Shown: positions 34,007 to 41,699 of the stretch, piece by piece | Position numbering within the stretch: position 1 is the first letter of the stretch | Layout: the number at the start of each line of letters is the position of its first letter | Notes under the pieces: model-generated | Told to the model about the DNA's origin: nothing | The model's input: only the letters and a program-made list of their open reading frames with translations | Databases searched by the model: none | DNA from: Thecaphora thlaspeos | Taxonomy: Eukaryota > Basidiomycota > Ustilaginomycetes > Urocystidales > Glomosporiaceae | DNA: 64,000 nt | Direction of reading: 5' to 3' | Assembly: GCA_900291925.1 (NCBI GenBank) | Contig: UWYS01000021.1 | Span: 310,001 to 374,000 of the forward strand | Translations under genes and position numbers: made by a program

Positions 34007-35300
34007 CGGGCGGCTGCGCCAGCGGCGGATCACCGCCTCGATCTTGGTCTTCGGTCTCGTTTTGGGGTTTCATTCAGTCACGACGAACGGAAGCAAAGAA
34101 GGAAGGCAGGATCAAGAGTATCTCGTCATCTCTACACGGAAAGCACGCTAATCCAGACGCTATAACGACCTTCTCTCGGACTTGTACATACACACGCTAG
34201 AGACGTCGAGACGTTGTCATTTCCATCATGCTACACGCTCCCCTGCTCTCATACCATTCTCCATGCCTGGCCGCGATGGCGAAGGCGGATCGCCATCCAA
34301 GGATCCTGAGGCATTCGCGCGACGCGACGAGGCGGTGTGTCTGTTCCTCGTCGACGCTTCTTCCTGCTGAGACGGGGCGAACATCTTGCGCTGATCTCTG
34401 AGCTCTTGGAAGGCCTTTGGAGACATGTTGTTCCTGTCCTCCTCGCTCTCGCGGCCCGAGCGGATGCGTATATTGAAAGCAAAGCGGGATGGAATGGAGC
34501 GATTTCTCGTTCCTTTTGACCTTTTTCCTTAGCGCTTCGCATCCGAACACGGGCGGCGGACGCGGGCCTGGCTTTGCATGGCTGCAGGCAAGAGGCGCCG
34601 CTACTGTACACGCGCACAAGACGGGGGGGGGACCTGGCGGACCACGCCCAGAGGAAACGGCAGGCGCAGGCCCGAGCCAAAGCGCGCCGTCGGCGAGGCT
34701 CGATCGCCTCTCCAGACGACCAAGCTCACCGAGGTTGTTCCAGGGCCTCGTTGCCGCCGCCGCCACATCTCTCTCTCTCTATCGTCACACCAACCGCCGT
34801 CGGCATCGCCGCGCACCTCTGCAAGATCACATCCGGTGGGGGTTCACGCTACGCCCGCCCCTTTCTGCCGTCACAACAACCAGCAGCAAACCGCCCGCGT
34901 CCCTCGGTTGCCAGCCGACCGACCGACCGCGCTCGCTCGCCCGCCCGCCCCTCGTCGTCCCTCTCTTCGCCTCTACCGCCATCGCAACCGTCGGAGCTCG
35001 CCTTGTGGGTCAACCAGGTCCGCCAGCGCAACCAGTCCATCACCCGACCCACTCCAACCCGGCATCGTCCCTCGGATCCCACACCACCGCCGCCGCCGCT
35101 GCTCCGTCCCACAGCGTCTCGAGCGCCTCGGAGCTTGAGCAAGACGTCCAGCGCCAGAGGCAGGAGTGCCAGACGCGGAGGAACCGCCTCAGCACCTCTG
35201 GCGTCCGTGGCATCACCGACTCCCCTCTTGCCTCGCCCGTCTCGGAGTACCCGCCCTCGCCCTCGGCCTCGCCATTGCGCCCCTTTGCCCGCCTTACACG

Positions 35301-35333
<33 letters not shown>

Positions 35334-35338
35334 CCGCC
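34007..35338. other. Intergenic region and 5' leader of the GART-gelsolin gene
   Basis: 1.33 kb. No independent gene is recognised. The reading frame of the downstream gene is open back to about 34574, but the translation there is Pro/Arg/Ser/Ala-rich and shadow-like, so I treat it as leader. A (CAG)n tract lies at 35302-35333 directly before the start codon. Confidence 0.5.
35302..35333 (+). repeat. CAG repeat in the 5' leader
   Basis: About ten CAG units ending six bases before the ATG of the GART-gelsolin gene (context GCCGCCATGA). Confidence 0.85.
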
Positions 35339-38300
35339 ATGAACAGCGGAACCCCTTCCGCACACCAGCAAGGCCCGGCCCAGGCCAGTCCTGCGGGCCG
35401 CCCCAACATCGGACGGGCCAACTCCCTCCTCTCCCGCTACGGCGGACAGGATGGGCCGACAGGCGTAGCCGCCGGGCCCAGATCCGCCGCCGACTCGCCC
35501 GTCTCGCTGGCCAACTTCATGGGCGGCAACGCCTCTGGCCCGCGCCTCGGGAAGCTGGCCGACGACGCAAAGAGCGCTCCGTCCGAGGCCTCCGAGATCC
35601 ACGAGAGCCGTTGGGTCGCGCTCCCCGGCCTCGCCTCGGTCGGCAACGCCGGCGCCAAGCCTCTGGCCAGCTTCCTCGAAGAGAGGGCTAACGCCGCCGC
35701 AGCAAAGAGGAGCAGCTTCTCGGCCGCAGCCGCCGCCGCCGCCGCCGCCGCCGCCCGTGCGCCGCCAGCCACGTTGACCAGCGCGGCCAAGTACTCGGAC
35801 TATATCAGCCGCTCTCGCTCCCGCTCCAACTCCTACCGCACCTCGACCTCGCCCCGCAAGGCCTACATGGATCTCATCGGAAAGCAGCAGAGCGCCGACT
35901 CGGCCGCGGCTTCCGGCATCCCGCGCCCCGCCAGTCCCTCGAAGCCGTGGGAACGGCCAAGCGCCGCCATGGCCTCGCCGGACGACGTTGCGCGGCCCCG
36001 CTCGCCCTTCAAGTCGGCTGGCGGCGGTGGTTTCTTTGCACCATCCTCTCCCACCAAGGCGTCCGGAGTGCAGATTCCTACGACGGCGACCAGCAGCCGA
36101 CTCGGAGCGTCCATCGACAGCAGCTACACCTCCCCTCGCAAGGACGCAGCCACCAGCCCGCTGAAGCCCGAGGAGGTGCCTTTTGCCAAGACGGTCACCG
36201 CTTCGTCCGCCCTCGGCTCCAACTCGAGCTCCAGCATCAACCGCGGCGCGCCCGCGCCGAGCTGGAGGTCGAGCACCCTGTCCACCGCCAAGGTCGACGT
36301 CCCCCATCCGGCCTCGCCCCAGCCTCAGGAGGGCCAGCGCTCGGCCACCTTCCCCTCGGCGCCGACCTCGCCCACTGCCGGCGACCGCAACCCCACCGCC
36401 TCGCTGACCCGCCTCAGCGCCAAGAAGATGGTCGGGCAGAGGATTCGCGAGGCACAGCAGCGCGACGTCCAGGCGCACAAGGAAAGCGAGTCTACCACGG
36501 TCGCGCCCGGCGTCGGCGCCGGCCTCAGCAAGTATGGCGGCAGCGCGTACGGCGCAGGCGGCGTCCGCGACCGATGGCCCGCCGGCGCCCCCATGGGCGG
36601 CTCGACCGCATCGACGCCCACGCAAGAGGAGAACAAGAAGATCGGCGGATGGTCGCCGAGCAAGTTTGGCAACGCGCTACCCGGCCTCGCCGGCCGATCC
36701 CCGCCCAAGTCGTCTTCGGCGGCCGGAGCTGGTGGCTTCGGAACCTCGCCCTCAAAGCGCTATGCAGACGACGATGCGGCTGAATTGCGCGCGGCGCCCG
36801 TCCGTCTGCCCGGCATGGGCGGCGAGGCGAGCCCCTTTAAGCGTTTCAGCGCCGCTCCCTCTTCGCCGACCAAAGAGGAGCAGATCGAGCGTGCTGGAGC
36901 GGGCGACGTGCTCCAGCCGCTGACAAAGGGCCGCGTACGAGGACCGGCAAGGAGACCGGCAGCAGCAGCAGCAGCAGCGGCAGTATCGACTACCGCGCTG
37001 CTGTCGAGCGCCCACAGGCCTTCGCTGCAGGTCGCCACGTCGCCGACGCCGGCCGGCGCATCCACGTCTGCGGCGTCCAGCAGCCCGAAGAAGGTGATCT
37101 CGGGCTTCGGCGCGCCCGGCAGCCCGAGCAAGACGCAAGTGCTTGCCTCCAAGTTTGGTGGTGACGGCGGCGGTAGCACTGCCGCTGCCGCCACACCCTC
37201 CAGCCCGACGAAAGGCTCGTTCACGGCCGCAGCTAGCGGTCCGCGGAGCCCGGTCAAGGCGACTTTCGGCTCGACAACGACGACAGCAGCTGCTACTACG
37301 GGCAACACGATGCCGTCCACTGCGCCCGCCTCTACGAAGCCGCGCCGCTCGACCCGCGGCAAGCGGGTCCATGTGCTTATCTCGGGCTCTGGATCGAATT
37401 TGCAGTCGCTGATCGACGCAACGCTGCTGGACCCGCCCCGCGGCATCCCCGTCATCCCGAACGCGCAGATCTCCTTCGTCCTCTCCAATCGCAAGGCCGC
37501 CTACGGCCTGAAGCGCGCGAGCGAGTCCAACCCTCCGATCCCGACCAAGGTGCTGGCGCTCAAGATGTGGCAGAACGCCAACCCGGGCGGGACGCGCGAG
37601 GAGTATGACCGCGTCCTCGCCCGGGCCGTGCTCGATGGGGACGCCGAGGGCAAGGCGACACCCCCGGACTTGGTCGTGCTGGCCGGCTTCATGCACATCG
37701 TCTCCGAGGGCTTCCTCCACGCGCTCGGGCACAAGACGTCGCTGCCGAGCTCGACGCCGACGATCGGCACCCGTCCGTCCAAGGCGGTCCCGATCATCAA
37801 TCTCCACCCGGCGCTGCCGGGAGCCTTTGACGGCGTCAACGCCATCCCGCGAGCGTTCGAGGCGGTCCAGCAGGGCCTGACCGATCGGACCGGATGCATG
37901 GTCCACGAGGTGGTGGCCGACGTCGACCGCGGCCGTCCGCTTATTGTGCGCGAGATTGTCGTTCGGCCAGGCTGGGATCTGGCCAAGCTGGAGGAGGAGA
38001 TCCACAAGATCGAGCACGTCATCATCGTCGAAGGAGCACGACAAGTGCTCGAGGGCCGACTCGAAGAGCTGGACCGAGAGCAGGAGGCCAAGGAGAAGGA
38101 GCAGGCCGAACGGGAGGCACGGCAGACACGGCAGGCGCCGCAGCAACCCAGACCCTTGCCAAGCCGCAGCCTCAGCGAGACGGTCCATATCCAATCGGCA
38201 GAGGATGCGGCGAGCGTCGCATTCAAGGCAGAGCAAGCGCTCAAAACGAGCTCGTTTGAGCCCGACGCCATCCTGAGCTACGGAGCCCCGTCAGCATCAC

Positions 38301-39739
38301 CGCCTGCTGGCAAGCTCAAGACGGTCTCGGTCGACGTGATCGGCATCCGTGCGGACGGGACGCCCAAGGCGATCGACGGTGATGCCGATGCCGGTGCCGG
38401 TACCGCGTCCGGCTACGGAATCTCGGACGTGCCAGCTCTCTACGACGACGAGACGCTGGCCGTCGTCCATCGCTTCAAGGCGGCGAGCGGCCTGATGGAG
38501 AACCAGGTGTGGATTCGGCTCGGTATGCGCTCGCCCCTCCACCCGATGCAGCAGGGTCATTCGGCGTCGTCGTTATCGGAGTCGAGCGACGAGGTGTGGA
38601 GGCGCGCCGAGGAGCTGGCCAAGCGTTATGGCACCGAGCCTACCTTTGTCCCTGCCGGGTTCGAAAACGTCGACCTCATCGACGCTCTTGACAGCCGATG
38701 GACAGTGACGCGGCAGGGAAGCAGGGCCAGGTTCGACGCCATGGGGACCGGGCTCTACCGCGTCCGCAGGGCCATTGGCGCCGCAGTCGATGCCGGTCGG
38801 ACGACTATCACGCAAGTGGATCTCGTGAGTGCAGAGAAGGCGGTCAGAAAGGATGGCCGTCGTCATCGATGCGCGACTAGAATCGTCGAACAGGGTGGCC
38901 GACTGACACACGCTTAGACATTTCCGCTCCGCTCTTGCCTCTCGCAGACGACGTCGAATCTCTGCTCCGGCGACAGCTTCGTCGCGTCGGTCCTGGGATC
39001 GGCCCTCGTTTGGCACGGCCGAGGCTCGGACGCGGCAAGTCGCGATGCCGCTCGCCAGTTTGCCCGTGCATTGCAGCTCGAGGCGTCGTCTGGCGCAAGT
39101 GGCGATCGGATCTCTGAAAACGAAGAGGGTCGCGAAGACGGCTTCTTCTGGGACCTCTTTGACCGAGACGAGGCGTACGCCTCCGCGTGGTACCACGGCC
39201 TTGCGCACGGCGCCGCTGCGACGTCGTCGGCGGTGCAGCTGTTCGACCTGGGCCTGGAGCGCGGTACACTGACGCTCCACCCGGCCATCGAAGCGGGTTG
39301 TTTCGGCCAGATGGACCTGTGCTCGGCGCAGCGTCAGGACGAGATATCTCTGCTCAACCTATCGAACCGCGAGCTGTACGTCGTTGTGGGCGAGCGGGCG
39401 CGCAACGATCGCGTCAAGATCCTGGCGGGCTGTTTGCTGGCCGAGCGTCTCGCGGCGCACCTAGAGAGCAGCGGCGGACCGGAACGCGAGGCAGGCAGGC
39501 CAGCGACGCACGTCCTGGTACTACCTTCGCGCATCCCACGCGAAGTTCGCGCAGCCGCTCGCTACTGGGACGATGCTCTCTACGACAACCTCGGCGGCGG
39601 GAGCGCAAAGATGAACGTCAAGACGACGCGCGAAGCCGCCAAGGAGGTGACGACGCACCAGTGGCCTAGGGAGACGCTGCTGGATCCGAGCTGGTTGCCC
39701 GTCGGCGTGGCGGAAGAGGATGTCGGCGTCGAGATATGA
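35339..39739 (+). CDS. DUF4045-like / GAR transformylase / gelsolin-like fusion protein
   Basis: Exons 35339-38824 and 38948-39739 encode 1425 aa in one continuous frame. Residues 1-~670 are Ser/Pro-rich with repeated SPxK/SPTK motifs, GGWSPSKFGNALPGLAG and LTKGRVRGPARRP, which resemble fungal DUF4045 proteins. Residues ~674-905 are a complete glycinamide ribonucleotide formyltransferase: HVLISGSGSNLQSLID, SNRKAAYGLKRA, IINLHPALPGAFDG (catalytic Asn and His) and GCMVHEVVADVDRG (catalytic Asp). A charged coiled-coil follows. Residues ~1030-1425 are gelsolin-like: TLAVVHRFK, then LYRVRRAIG, DSFVASVLGSALVWHGRGSD and RDAARQFARALQ. The GART part would do step 3 of purine synthesis. The start has a strong GCCGCC context. 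The intron is 123 nt with a GTGAGT donor. Confidence 0.85.
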
Positions 39740-40169: not shown

Positions 40170-41261
40170 CTACGCTGAGATGGCACCGGGCGTAGCGGCG
40201 CTATCCACTCTCGCTTTACTGGCGCCTCTACCCGTCGCTGCGCCTCCTGCTGGCGTCTTTGCTTTCGCACCACCACCACCACCTTCTCCTCCTCCTCCTC
40301 CCTTGCCTTTTGCCGCACCGCCACCACCCGATTTACCACCTATCCCCTTGACCTTTGCACCCTTTGCAGTTCCACCTTGATGATGCTCTTCATCTTCGCC
40401 CACTGTCGCACCGAGCGCGGCGCCGTTGGCGTTTGCTGTACCCTGTTGCGGGTCGGTAGCGTTTAGTGCTCCAGCCTTTTCCGCTACCTCTTCTACACCT
40501 CCTACCTTTCTAGCCTCCGTGACGATCCTATCTGCGTACAGAAGCTGTTCGAATCTTGCTAGTTTCTTATCCTCGACCTCTTTTCTGAGAACGTGTCGAA
40601 AGTCTTCTAGCTTGACACGTTGACGGTGTGGAGCGCGCGGCGGTAAGGTTGCACCTGTGCCGTGTACGTCTGTCGATTCGTCAGTCGTTCCATCCTGTTC
40701 GCCGCCGATGGTGGTGGTGGTGGTGGAGTGGGCGGATGCGCTGGTGCTAGCTGAGAGGTTACTCGTGCCCAGTCCGAGCGCGTAGGGACTAGGTCGTGCG
40801 CGCGCACATAGGTCCGTAATGAATTCCACCGTCATCTCCTCGAGCATCGTGACGGATTCGGGGTCCGGATTCGCGACGTCTCCGTAGGCGTACATGAGGT
40901 TTCGAAGGTCCTTGGCGAATAGGTTGCGATGGTTGAATGCCTTTCGACCCCGGCTCCCCGCCAGCGCGTGCGTGGCCGAGGTCGAAAGGGTAGTGTTGGC
41001 ATTGGAAGATGAGGATGACGCGACTAAGGCAGGATGGATGAAGGGTACCTTCTGTGACGGACCCGTGGCGGCGAGAGAAGAGGAGCCCAAAGGTCCAACG
41101 ACACTGCCACTGCCACCGCCACCGCCACCGCCGATGGGAACTCGTCGACCTCCTCCGCCGGCGCCGCCCGGTTGGTAAAGATGCGGGGTGGGACGGACGG
41201 AGGAGCCCTGGCGTGATGATCGATCTGGCCGCTGTGAGCCTCGAGAGGGTGTGGGTGGCAT
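40170..41261 (-). CDS. TAF13: TFIID subunit TAF13 (histone-fold protein)
   Basis: Single exon, 363 aa. The histone fold starts FAKDLRNLMYAYGDVANP, continues ESVTMLEEMTVEFITDLCARA (about residues 115-153) and resumes VKLEDFRHVLRKEVEDKKLA through YADRIVTEARK (about 215-251). This matches TAF13, which pairs with TAF11 in the RNA polymerase II factor TFIID. An insertion of ~60 Ser/Thr-rich residues separates helix 2 from helix 3, where other TAF13 proteins have only a short loop. The N-terminus (Gly-rich) and the C-terminus (~110 residues, Gly/Ala/Lys-rich) are also extended; yeast and animal TAF13 are under 170 aa. The start was taken at MPPTPSRG; an upstream in-frame extension is unlike protein. 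Confidence 0.88.
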   Translation of the reverse strand: MPPTPSRGSQRPDRSSRQGSSVRPTPHLYQPGGAGGGGRRVPIGGGGGGGSGSVVGPLGSSSLAATGPSQKVPFIHPALVASSSSSNANTTLSTSATHALAGSRGRKAFNHRNLFAKDLRNLMYAYGDVANPDPESVTMLEEMTVEFITDLCARARPSPYALGLGTSNLSASTSASAHSTTTTTIGGEQDGTTDESTDVHGTGATLPPRAPHRQRVKLEDFRHVLRKEVEDKKLARFEQLLYADRIVTEARKVGGVEEVAEKAGALNATDPQQGTANANGAALGATVGEDEEHHQGGTAKGAKVKGIGGKSGGGGAAKGKGGGGGEGGGGGAKAKTPAGGAATGRGASKARVDSAATPGAISA

Positions 41262-41578
41262 GGCGGAATGGGATGTGTGTGCGCAAGGGCGTCGTGGTGG
41301 TGGTGGTGCGGAAGGGAGCGACGCACGCGCCTCGCCTTTTCCTGGTCGATACTTTGATGTGCCGCCTTTGCAACCCTCATCCACAACCACTCCCAATTCA
41401 CCCTTGGCCTCGTCCTGACTGCAACAGGACCTGACCACAACGGAAACGCGCAGCGATGGTCCACCAAGCAAAGACGTAGCGCCACAGTGAACCCCATGTG
41501 TGCCAGCCATCGTCGCCTCGACGCTGGAGCTCCCATGCTCGAGGCGGAGCTGTGCGAAGCCGATGAACGAAGCCGGAG
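41262..41578. other. TAF13 upstream region
   Basis: Short region between the TAF13 start and the tRNA-Gln terminator. No gene is visible; it probably contains the TAF13 promoter. Confidence 0.5.
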
Positions 41579-41585
41579 AAAAAAA
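41579..41585 (-). terminator. Pol III terminator of tRNA-Gln
   Basis: T7 on the tRNA strand beginning 5 nt after the discriminator base. Confidence 0.85.
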
Positions 41586-41589
41586 GACG

Positions 41590-41699
41590 AGGTCCTACCC
41601 GGACTCGAACCGGGGGCGAGCGGAACTTATCAACCCCTGTCAGAAGGGGATTTAGAAGAGGATCAGAACCGCTAGAGTTGACCGCTACTCCATAGAACC
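41590..41699 (-). tRNA. tRNA-Gln(CTG) with a 38-nt intron
   Basis: On the minus strand the acceptor arms GGTTCTA and TAGGACC pair over seven positions (one G:U), with discriminator T. The D stem pairs GAGT with ACTC and the T arm is CCCGGTTCGAGTCCGGG. The anticodon stem pairs AGCGG with CCGCT, with loop TTCTGA before the intron, so the anticodon is CTG. The loop and flanks resemble yeast tRNA-Gln(CTG). The intron (41625-41662) follows position 37, carries a CCCC/GGGG hairpin and contains CAG, complementary to the anticodon. The mature tRNA is 72 nt. Confidence 0.93.

Follow-up and report, generated by a model that had tools for sequence, protein, structure and literature searches.

The 64,000-nucleotide stretch of the Thecaphora thlaspeos genome analysed here (contig UWYS01000021.1, positions 310,001 to 374,000; hereafter the window) contains a gene in which a glycinamide ribonucleotide transformylase (GART; Ade8/PurN, the enzyme for the third reaction of de novo purine synthesis) is embedded in a gelsolin-like protein. 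In all likelihood, this protein is the Ustilaginomycotina form of a gelsolin-like protein that holds the cell's GART in its linker, where the enzyme would be tethered to actin. The reading frame is fused, the fusion is conserved among relatives, the catalytic residues are intact and the folds match in a close relative; the actin tether is a plausible, unproven hypothesis. We consider the architecture genuine, ancient and conserved; the arrangement is new, its component families being known. We found no literature on a GART-gelsolin protein, most subscription papers being outside the search.

One reading frame spans the tail, GART and the gelsolin-like domains

The gene lies on the + strand and, read from an ATG at 35339, consists of two exons and one intron encoding 1425 amino acids. 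Exon 1 (35339..38824), which is defined by the open frame, the gene model and homologues, covers residues 1-1162: the N-terminal tail, GART, the linker, gelsolin-like domain 1 and the beginning of domain 2. It is followed by an intron of 123 bases (38825..38947, GTGAGT...CGCAG) and by exon 2 (38948..39739), which encodes residues 1163-1425 and the stop, that is the remainder of the second and the third gelsolin-like domain, according to the gene model, the splice scan and the alignment with relatives. An earlier note, made from the sequence, had placed the gelsolin repeats after one intron: the intron exists, but it interrupts the second gelsolin-like domain, and the whole first one precedes it. 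Eight donor/acceptor pairs left the frame open to the end in the splice scan; we chose the pair with donor GTGAGT because its junction (...TQVDL followed by TTSNLCSGDSFV...) agrees with the aligned relatives. The same note had also described one uninterrupted frame, and this was borne out: the frame extends from stop to stop (34520-38917, + strand) over 1465 codons without interruption, and when 35400-38699 is cut into 22 bins of 150 bases, codon position 3 (G+C of 0.68-0.96) is the richest in G+C, alone or jointly, in 19 of them, all but those starting at 36900, 37200 and 37950.

The fusion is shared by three classes of Ustilaginomycotina

Protein searches listed at least 249 relatives among their matches (the best 120 of 2429 in one search; about 8000 candidates scored in each of two others), which were analysed together with the window protein, 250 proteins in all. 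They were scanned with profiles built from an alignment of 20 proteins (5 without GART and 15 fusions, the window protein among them), all of which match by construction. GART was detected in 243 proteins, 58 of which also carry the gelsolin half (hereafter fusions). In 45, the window protein among them, an N-terminal block is followed by GART and then by the gelsolin half; the N-terminal block and GART only are found in 5, and a gelsolin half without GART in 7.

The 57 database fusions, many named GART and several only 'hypothetical', carry 24 Ustilaginomycotina species names, besides unnamed records and one labelled as plant. Ustilaginomycetes with the fusion include Pseudozyma flocculosa, Thecaphora frezii, Ustilago, Sporisorium, Moesziomyces, Melanopsichium and Kalmanozyma; other carriers are Tilletiaria, Microstroma and Tilletia (Exobasidiomycetes) and Malassezia (Malasseziomycetes). 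Lineages were looked up for four species, and the remaining species presumably belong to the classes given here. The fusion is found in three of the five Ustilaginomycotina classes listed, and neither Moniliellomycetes, Peribolosporomycetes nor Wallemia appeared by name among the matches listed. Hence the domain order, for which the earlier note knew of no described protein, is not unique to the window genome; and where that note had envisaged relatives with the two genes far apart, the relatives are themselves fused.

Two annotation anomalies were seen along the way. P0020, in a record named Cichorium endivia, is a smut-type fusion that groups with Moesziomyces P0014 (100/98) and is probably a fungal contamination. 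Six mushroom GARTs (P0044-P0047, P0201-P0202) share their annotated protein with a kinase or threonine synthase part (the kinase being a protein kinase), and these joins may be merged gene models.

GART is intact and the gelsolin half comprises three predicted domains

The GART domain spans residues 672-905 (37352..38053, + strand), as delimited by PF00551, TIGR00639, PDB matches and our profile. PF00551 (Formyl_trans_N) matched the window protein at 89.1 bits (3.9e-25, cut-off 26.1). Alignment to human GART located N821 and H823 (NLH of NLHPA, codons at 37799..37807, + strand) and D863 (DVDRG, 37925..37927, + strand), which we take to be the catalytic Asn, His and Asp; a full GART domain with its catalytic residues, as proposed earlier, is thus present. 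The corresponding motifs are found in 57 of the 58 fusions, and decay of GART is ruled out by their integrity. The His of LAGFMHIVS in the window GART is an Arg in human GART; a His occupies this position in 57/57 pattern-matching free-size GARTs, the other 59 of the 116 examined (P0062-P0178 less P0151) being unmatched.

Downstream of a linker that starts charged and rich in Glu, Arg and Gln (38054..38293, + strand, from the domain limits), the gelsolin half covers residues 986-1422 (38294..39727, + strand, intron included). It was delimited by its profile, by phmmer of relative P0001 to villin and by the fold of relative P0003, comparison with which predicts three gelsolin-fold domains. PF00626 (gelsolin) did not match the window protein; in relative P0034 it scored 26.2 bits, above its cut-off of 21. 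DUF7904 (PF25480) stayed below its cut-off of 30 in the window piece (11.9 bits) and in P0003 (20.1 bits); it is among the precomputed domains in 8 of P0001-P0043.

A probable insertion of GART into the linker of a gelsolin-family protein

The GART-less proteins P0051-P0055, from Coniferiporia, Heliocybe, Ceratobasidium, Pleurotus and Mycena, are all collinear with the fusions from an N-terminal segment (LAEWTSKIK... / ELASWVNQVR...) to the gelsolin half (5/5). The blocks SLAxFxGGxxxGPRL and S(L/I)(S/T)RLxxxxxV are common to the fusions and to these five proteins (5/5), and the ending LxDxxxLPxG is found in four of them, not in P0051. Where the fusions have GART, the alignment shows a linker in P0051-P0055. 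The last block before the insertion common to GART-less relatives is the anchor motif LTKGRVRGPARR (36920..36955, + strand): P0244 and P0247, which are of the DUF4045 type (PF13254 found in the former, precomputed in the latter), hold TK(G/S)RA(K/R)GPKRRAP, like the 'TKGRxxGPxRR' that precedes GART, and a weaker, TKDRAK-like anchor is seen in P0051-P0055. In Heliocybe sulcata a gelsolin protein without GART (P0052) coexists with a free GART (P0116); both report a longest contig of 1843848, and their genes may be adjacent. The simplest reading of these alignments is that GART was inserted between a TKGRxxGPxRR-type anchor and a DUF7904-like domain; the collinear proteins and the anchor in P0244 and P0247 thus uphold the earlier proposal that the enzyme entered the linker.

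We computed a tree of 98 GART domains (IQ-TREE, midpoint root; the fusion fragments P0190 and P0194, with <180 GART residues, left out). All 56 fusion rows fell in one clade (95/94) together with eight others nested inside it (P0021, P0059, P0060, P0061, P0151, P0189, P0191 and P0195), and none of the remaining 34 rows is a fusion. The label 'fusion' takes 8 changes on this tree, vs 31.8 when labels are shuffled. On our reading the fusion was gained once, and the exceptions are later losses or truncated gene models; the insertion probably occurred once, before the lines of Ustilaginomycetes, Exobasidiomycetes and Malasseziomycetes split. P0021 and P0061 adjoin full-length fusions (branches of 0.0095 and 0.046), and the more divergent Tilletia P0151 and P0195 may be real paralogues. 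Three proteins all named Tilletia horrida are a full fusion (P0042), a short GART (P0151) and an N-terminal block joined to GART (P0195), a set in which a secondary separation of GART is possible.

No second GART was found in the T. thlaspeos genome

A profile search of the genome for a second GART, as the earlier note had suggested, returned PF00551 matches at three loci: the window locus, a PurU (C1; 304.3 bits over the cut-off of 285.95, with an ACT domain) and a partial Fmt-like ORF (C14; 118.8 of 201.5 bits). No GART other than that of the window was found with PF00551 or with the GART domain as query, in an exon-by-exon search that a gene of short exons could escape. The gelsolin half as query matched only itself in the genome, revealing no separate gelsolin paralogue, and the other PF00626 matches were all Sec23/Sec24-type proteins (3/3). 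PF25480 gave no match in the genome, but it was silent in 14 control genomes too and is therefore uninformative.

The N-terminal tail and the 5' end

A conserved N-terminal block (RANSLLSRYGGQ..SLANFMGGNASGPRL..LPGL; 35393..35674, + strand; alignment and profile matches) is partly common to gelsolin relatives without GART. The tail (residues 1-666) contains three [LM]PG[LM] motifs, vs 0.0 expected in shuffles, and 15 Cdk-like [ST]P.[KR] sites; among 22 proteins compared, 21 have at least one [LM]PG[LM] motif, the exception being P0247. The DUF4045 label given to the tail in the earlier note found no support: PF13254 had no match at E values up to 1, whether in the entire window protein or in residues 1-672, and only sub-threshold DUF7904 was seen. 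Alignment, instead, shows the tail to be homologous to gelsolin relatives.

The proteins of relatives extend N-terminally beyond the residue encoded by ATG 35339. One conserved peptide, SELALWVNQVRQRNQS, was found upstream in the ORF frame (34991..35038, + strand) and the next, SSASELEQDVQRQRQ...PVSEYPP, in another frame (offset 2; 35119..35256, + strand), so that the 5' end given here is provisional. The split may reflect a sequencing error or an unusual intron, or translation may truly begin at 35339; we do not decide between these readings. The adjoining gene (40170-41594, - strand) encodes a TFIID-18kDa (TAF13-type) domain (52.7 bits).

A putative actin-tethered GART and its alternatives

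The host would be a fungal gelsolin-like protein made of a low-complexity tail and three gelsolin-like domains, with GART inserted into its linker. The middle domain would formylate GAR with 10-formyl-tetrahydrofolate and supply the cell's GART activity, the gelsolin half is predicted to bind actin, and GART would thereby be tethered to actin structures; the tail, S/T-P-x-K/R-rich in the window protein and in most smut-type members, may act as a regulated targeting part. A passage of PMC5542705 reports that a gelsolin of M. oryzae (MGG_10059) fused to GFP labels appressorial F-actin rings. We regard as doubtful the bolder proposal that throughout the subphylum this purine step is obligatorily bound to the actin cytoskeleton, a single chain placing GART on F-actin, with mutual control between the state of actin and the supply of purines, and with the smut-type tail acting as a switch via Cdk-type phosphorylation.

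Several observations weigh against the main reading. The case is built on sequence and predicted structure. TIGR00639 (PurN) scored 139.7 bits for the window domain, under its cut-off of 150.1, which is the NCBIfam equivalog naming threshold for prokaryotic proteins; among six other fusions tested three missed this cut-off and three passed it, and the free fungal GARTs tested all exceeded it (5/5, 164-177 bits): the inserted GART diverges more. Residues at the places presumed to bind calcium, a role we assume for these gelsolin-like positions, vary where patterns matched, and the structural model (pTM = 0.57) says nothing on domain packing. Enrichment in S/T-P-x-K/R exceeds every shuffle in 9 of the 15 fusions tested, failing in three Tilletia and three Malassezia-type fusions. 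Six of the 8 changes on the tree are forced by well-supported branches; P0021, P0061, P0189, P0191 and P0195 stop at, or at most 28 residues past, the GART domain, and some species may have GART without gelsolin. Finally, the 5' end of the gene model is provisional, the conserved N-terminus being split over two frames.

It is quite possible that the fusion, though genuine and the source of the cell's GART, is a neutral accident, the gelsolin half being no more than a carrier of the enzyme and neither purine synthesis nor actin depending on the link. GART has also been joined to unrelated proteins, for example in Taphrinomycotina (a placement for which the Savitreella lineage was looked up), where P0205, P0207 and P0210 carry it within an alpha-aminoadipate reductase-like protein, between AMP-binding and PP-binding domains; P0048 and P0209 combine the two by precomputed domains alone, without domain order. 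P0205 and P0210 stand on a separate branch of the GART tree from the fusions, and theirs is an independent capture of GART, which suggests that many hosts are tolerated. The gelsolin half also drifts faster than GART (68% vs 93% identity to P0001). Against an accident, the link is kept in three classes, and conservation persists in the N-terminal block as well as in the gelsolin half; this retention may equally be entrapment, because no other GART was found in the window genome, the only one searched for a second GART.

It is unlikely that the locus mainly gives two products, through alternative starts, polyadenylation or proteolysis, the fused chain being minor. Animal GART genes do make a short product through intronic polyadenylation, the five models named above end at or soon past GART, the short P0151 lies inside the fusion clade, and the window has an ATG at 37310, 14 residues ahead of the GART profile start. 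This ATG, the internal start suspected in the earlier note, is however not conserved among the fusions: of the 51 fusions in which 60 residues or more precede GART, 40 lack a Met in those 60 and 11 have one, and the linker that follows GART contains a Met in 17 of 58 (linkers no longer than 10 residues being scored as having none), so that separate local starts are not a conserved feature. Moreover, the frame is open through GART, the linker and the first gelsolin-like domain, and the short branches of P0021 and P0061 beside full fusions point to cut models. An assembly or annotation artefact joining two adjacent genes on paper, to which the two-frame split upstream of ATG 35339 might hint, is extremely improbable, and we consider it ruled out by the single uninterrupted exon at the junction and by the 45 proteins from many species with all three parts in the same order.

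Enzyme-cytoskeleton links have mostly been claimed from weak or transient binding. If GART is indeed tethered to actin by the gelsolin half, the link would be covalent, in three fungal classes that include the smuts and Malassezia, a yeast of human skin, with no free copy of the enzyme found in the window genome. The fusion also shows that an essential enzyme can be captured, then retained, inside an unrelated protein.

Comparison with known systems

The window domain shares with stand-alone fungal GART (Ade8/PurN) the catalytic Asn/His/Asp motifs, the 'INLHPALPGAFDG' loop and the fold, with about 49-56% identity to the mushroom enzymes (among the best 120 of 2429 matches). The stand-alone enzyme is free and about 220-240 residues long, whereas the window GART is embedded in a 1425-residue protein and scores below the PurN cut-off. 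In the animal trifunctional GARS-AIRS-GART (P0056-P0058), GART is likewise one domain of a larger protein; however, its partners are purine enzymes, whereas the window fungus has GARS at a separate locus (C13). The alpha-aminoadipate reductase-like proteins of Taphrinomycotina (P0205, P0210) also hold GART inside an unrelated host, but host and tree branch differ. Animal gelsolin/villin G4-G6 share about 14-20% identity with the gelsolin half; unlike these proteins, the window protein has one set of three gelsolin-like domains, not two, and its calcium sites are only presumed. A related architecture is that of the DUF4045-DUF7904-gelsolin proteins (P0244, P0247) and the mushroom relatives (P0051-P0055), which have collinear blocks, a TKGRxxGPxRR-like anchor and DUF7904-like and further gelsolin-like domains as in the fusions; they differ in having no GART, and the window protein in having no PF13254 match.
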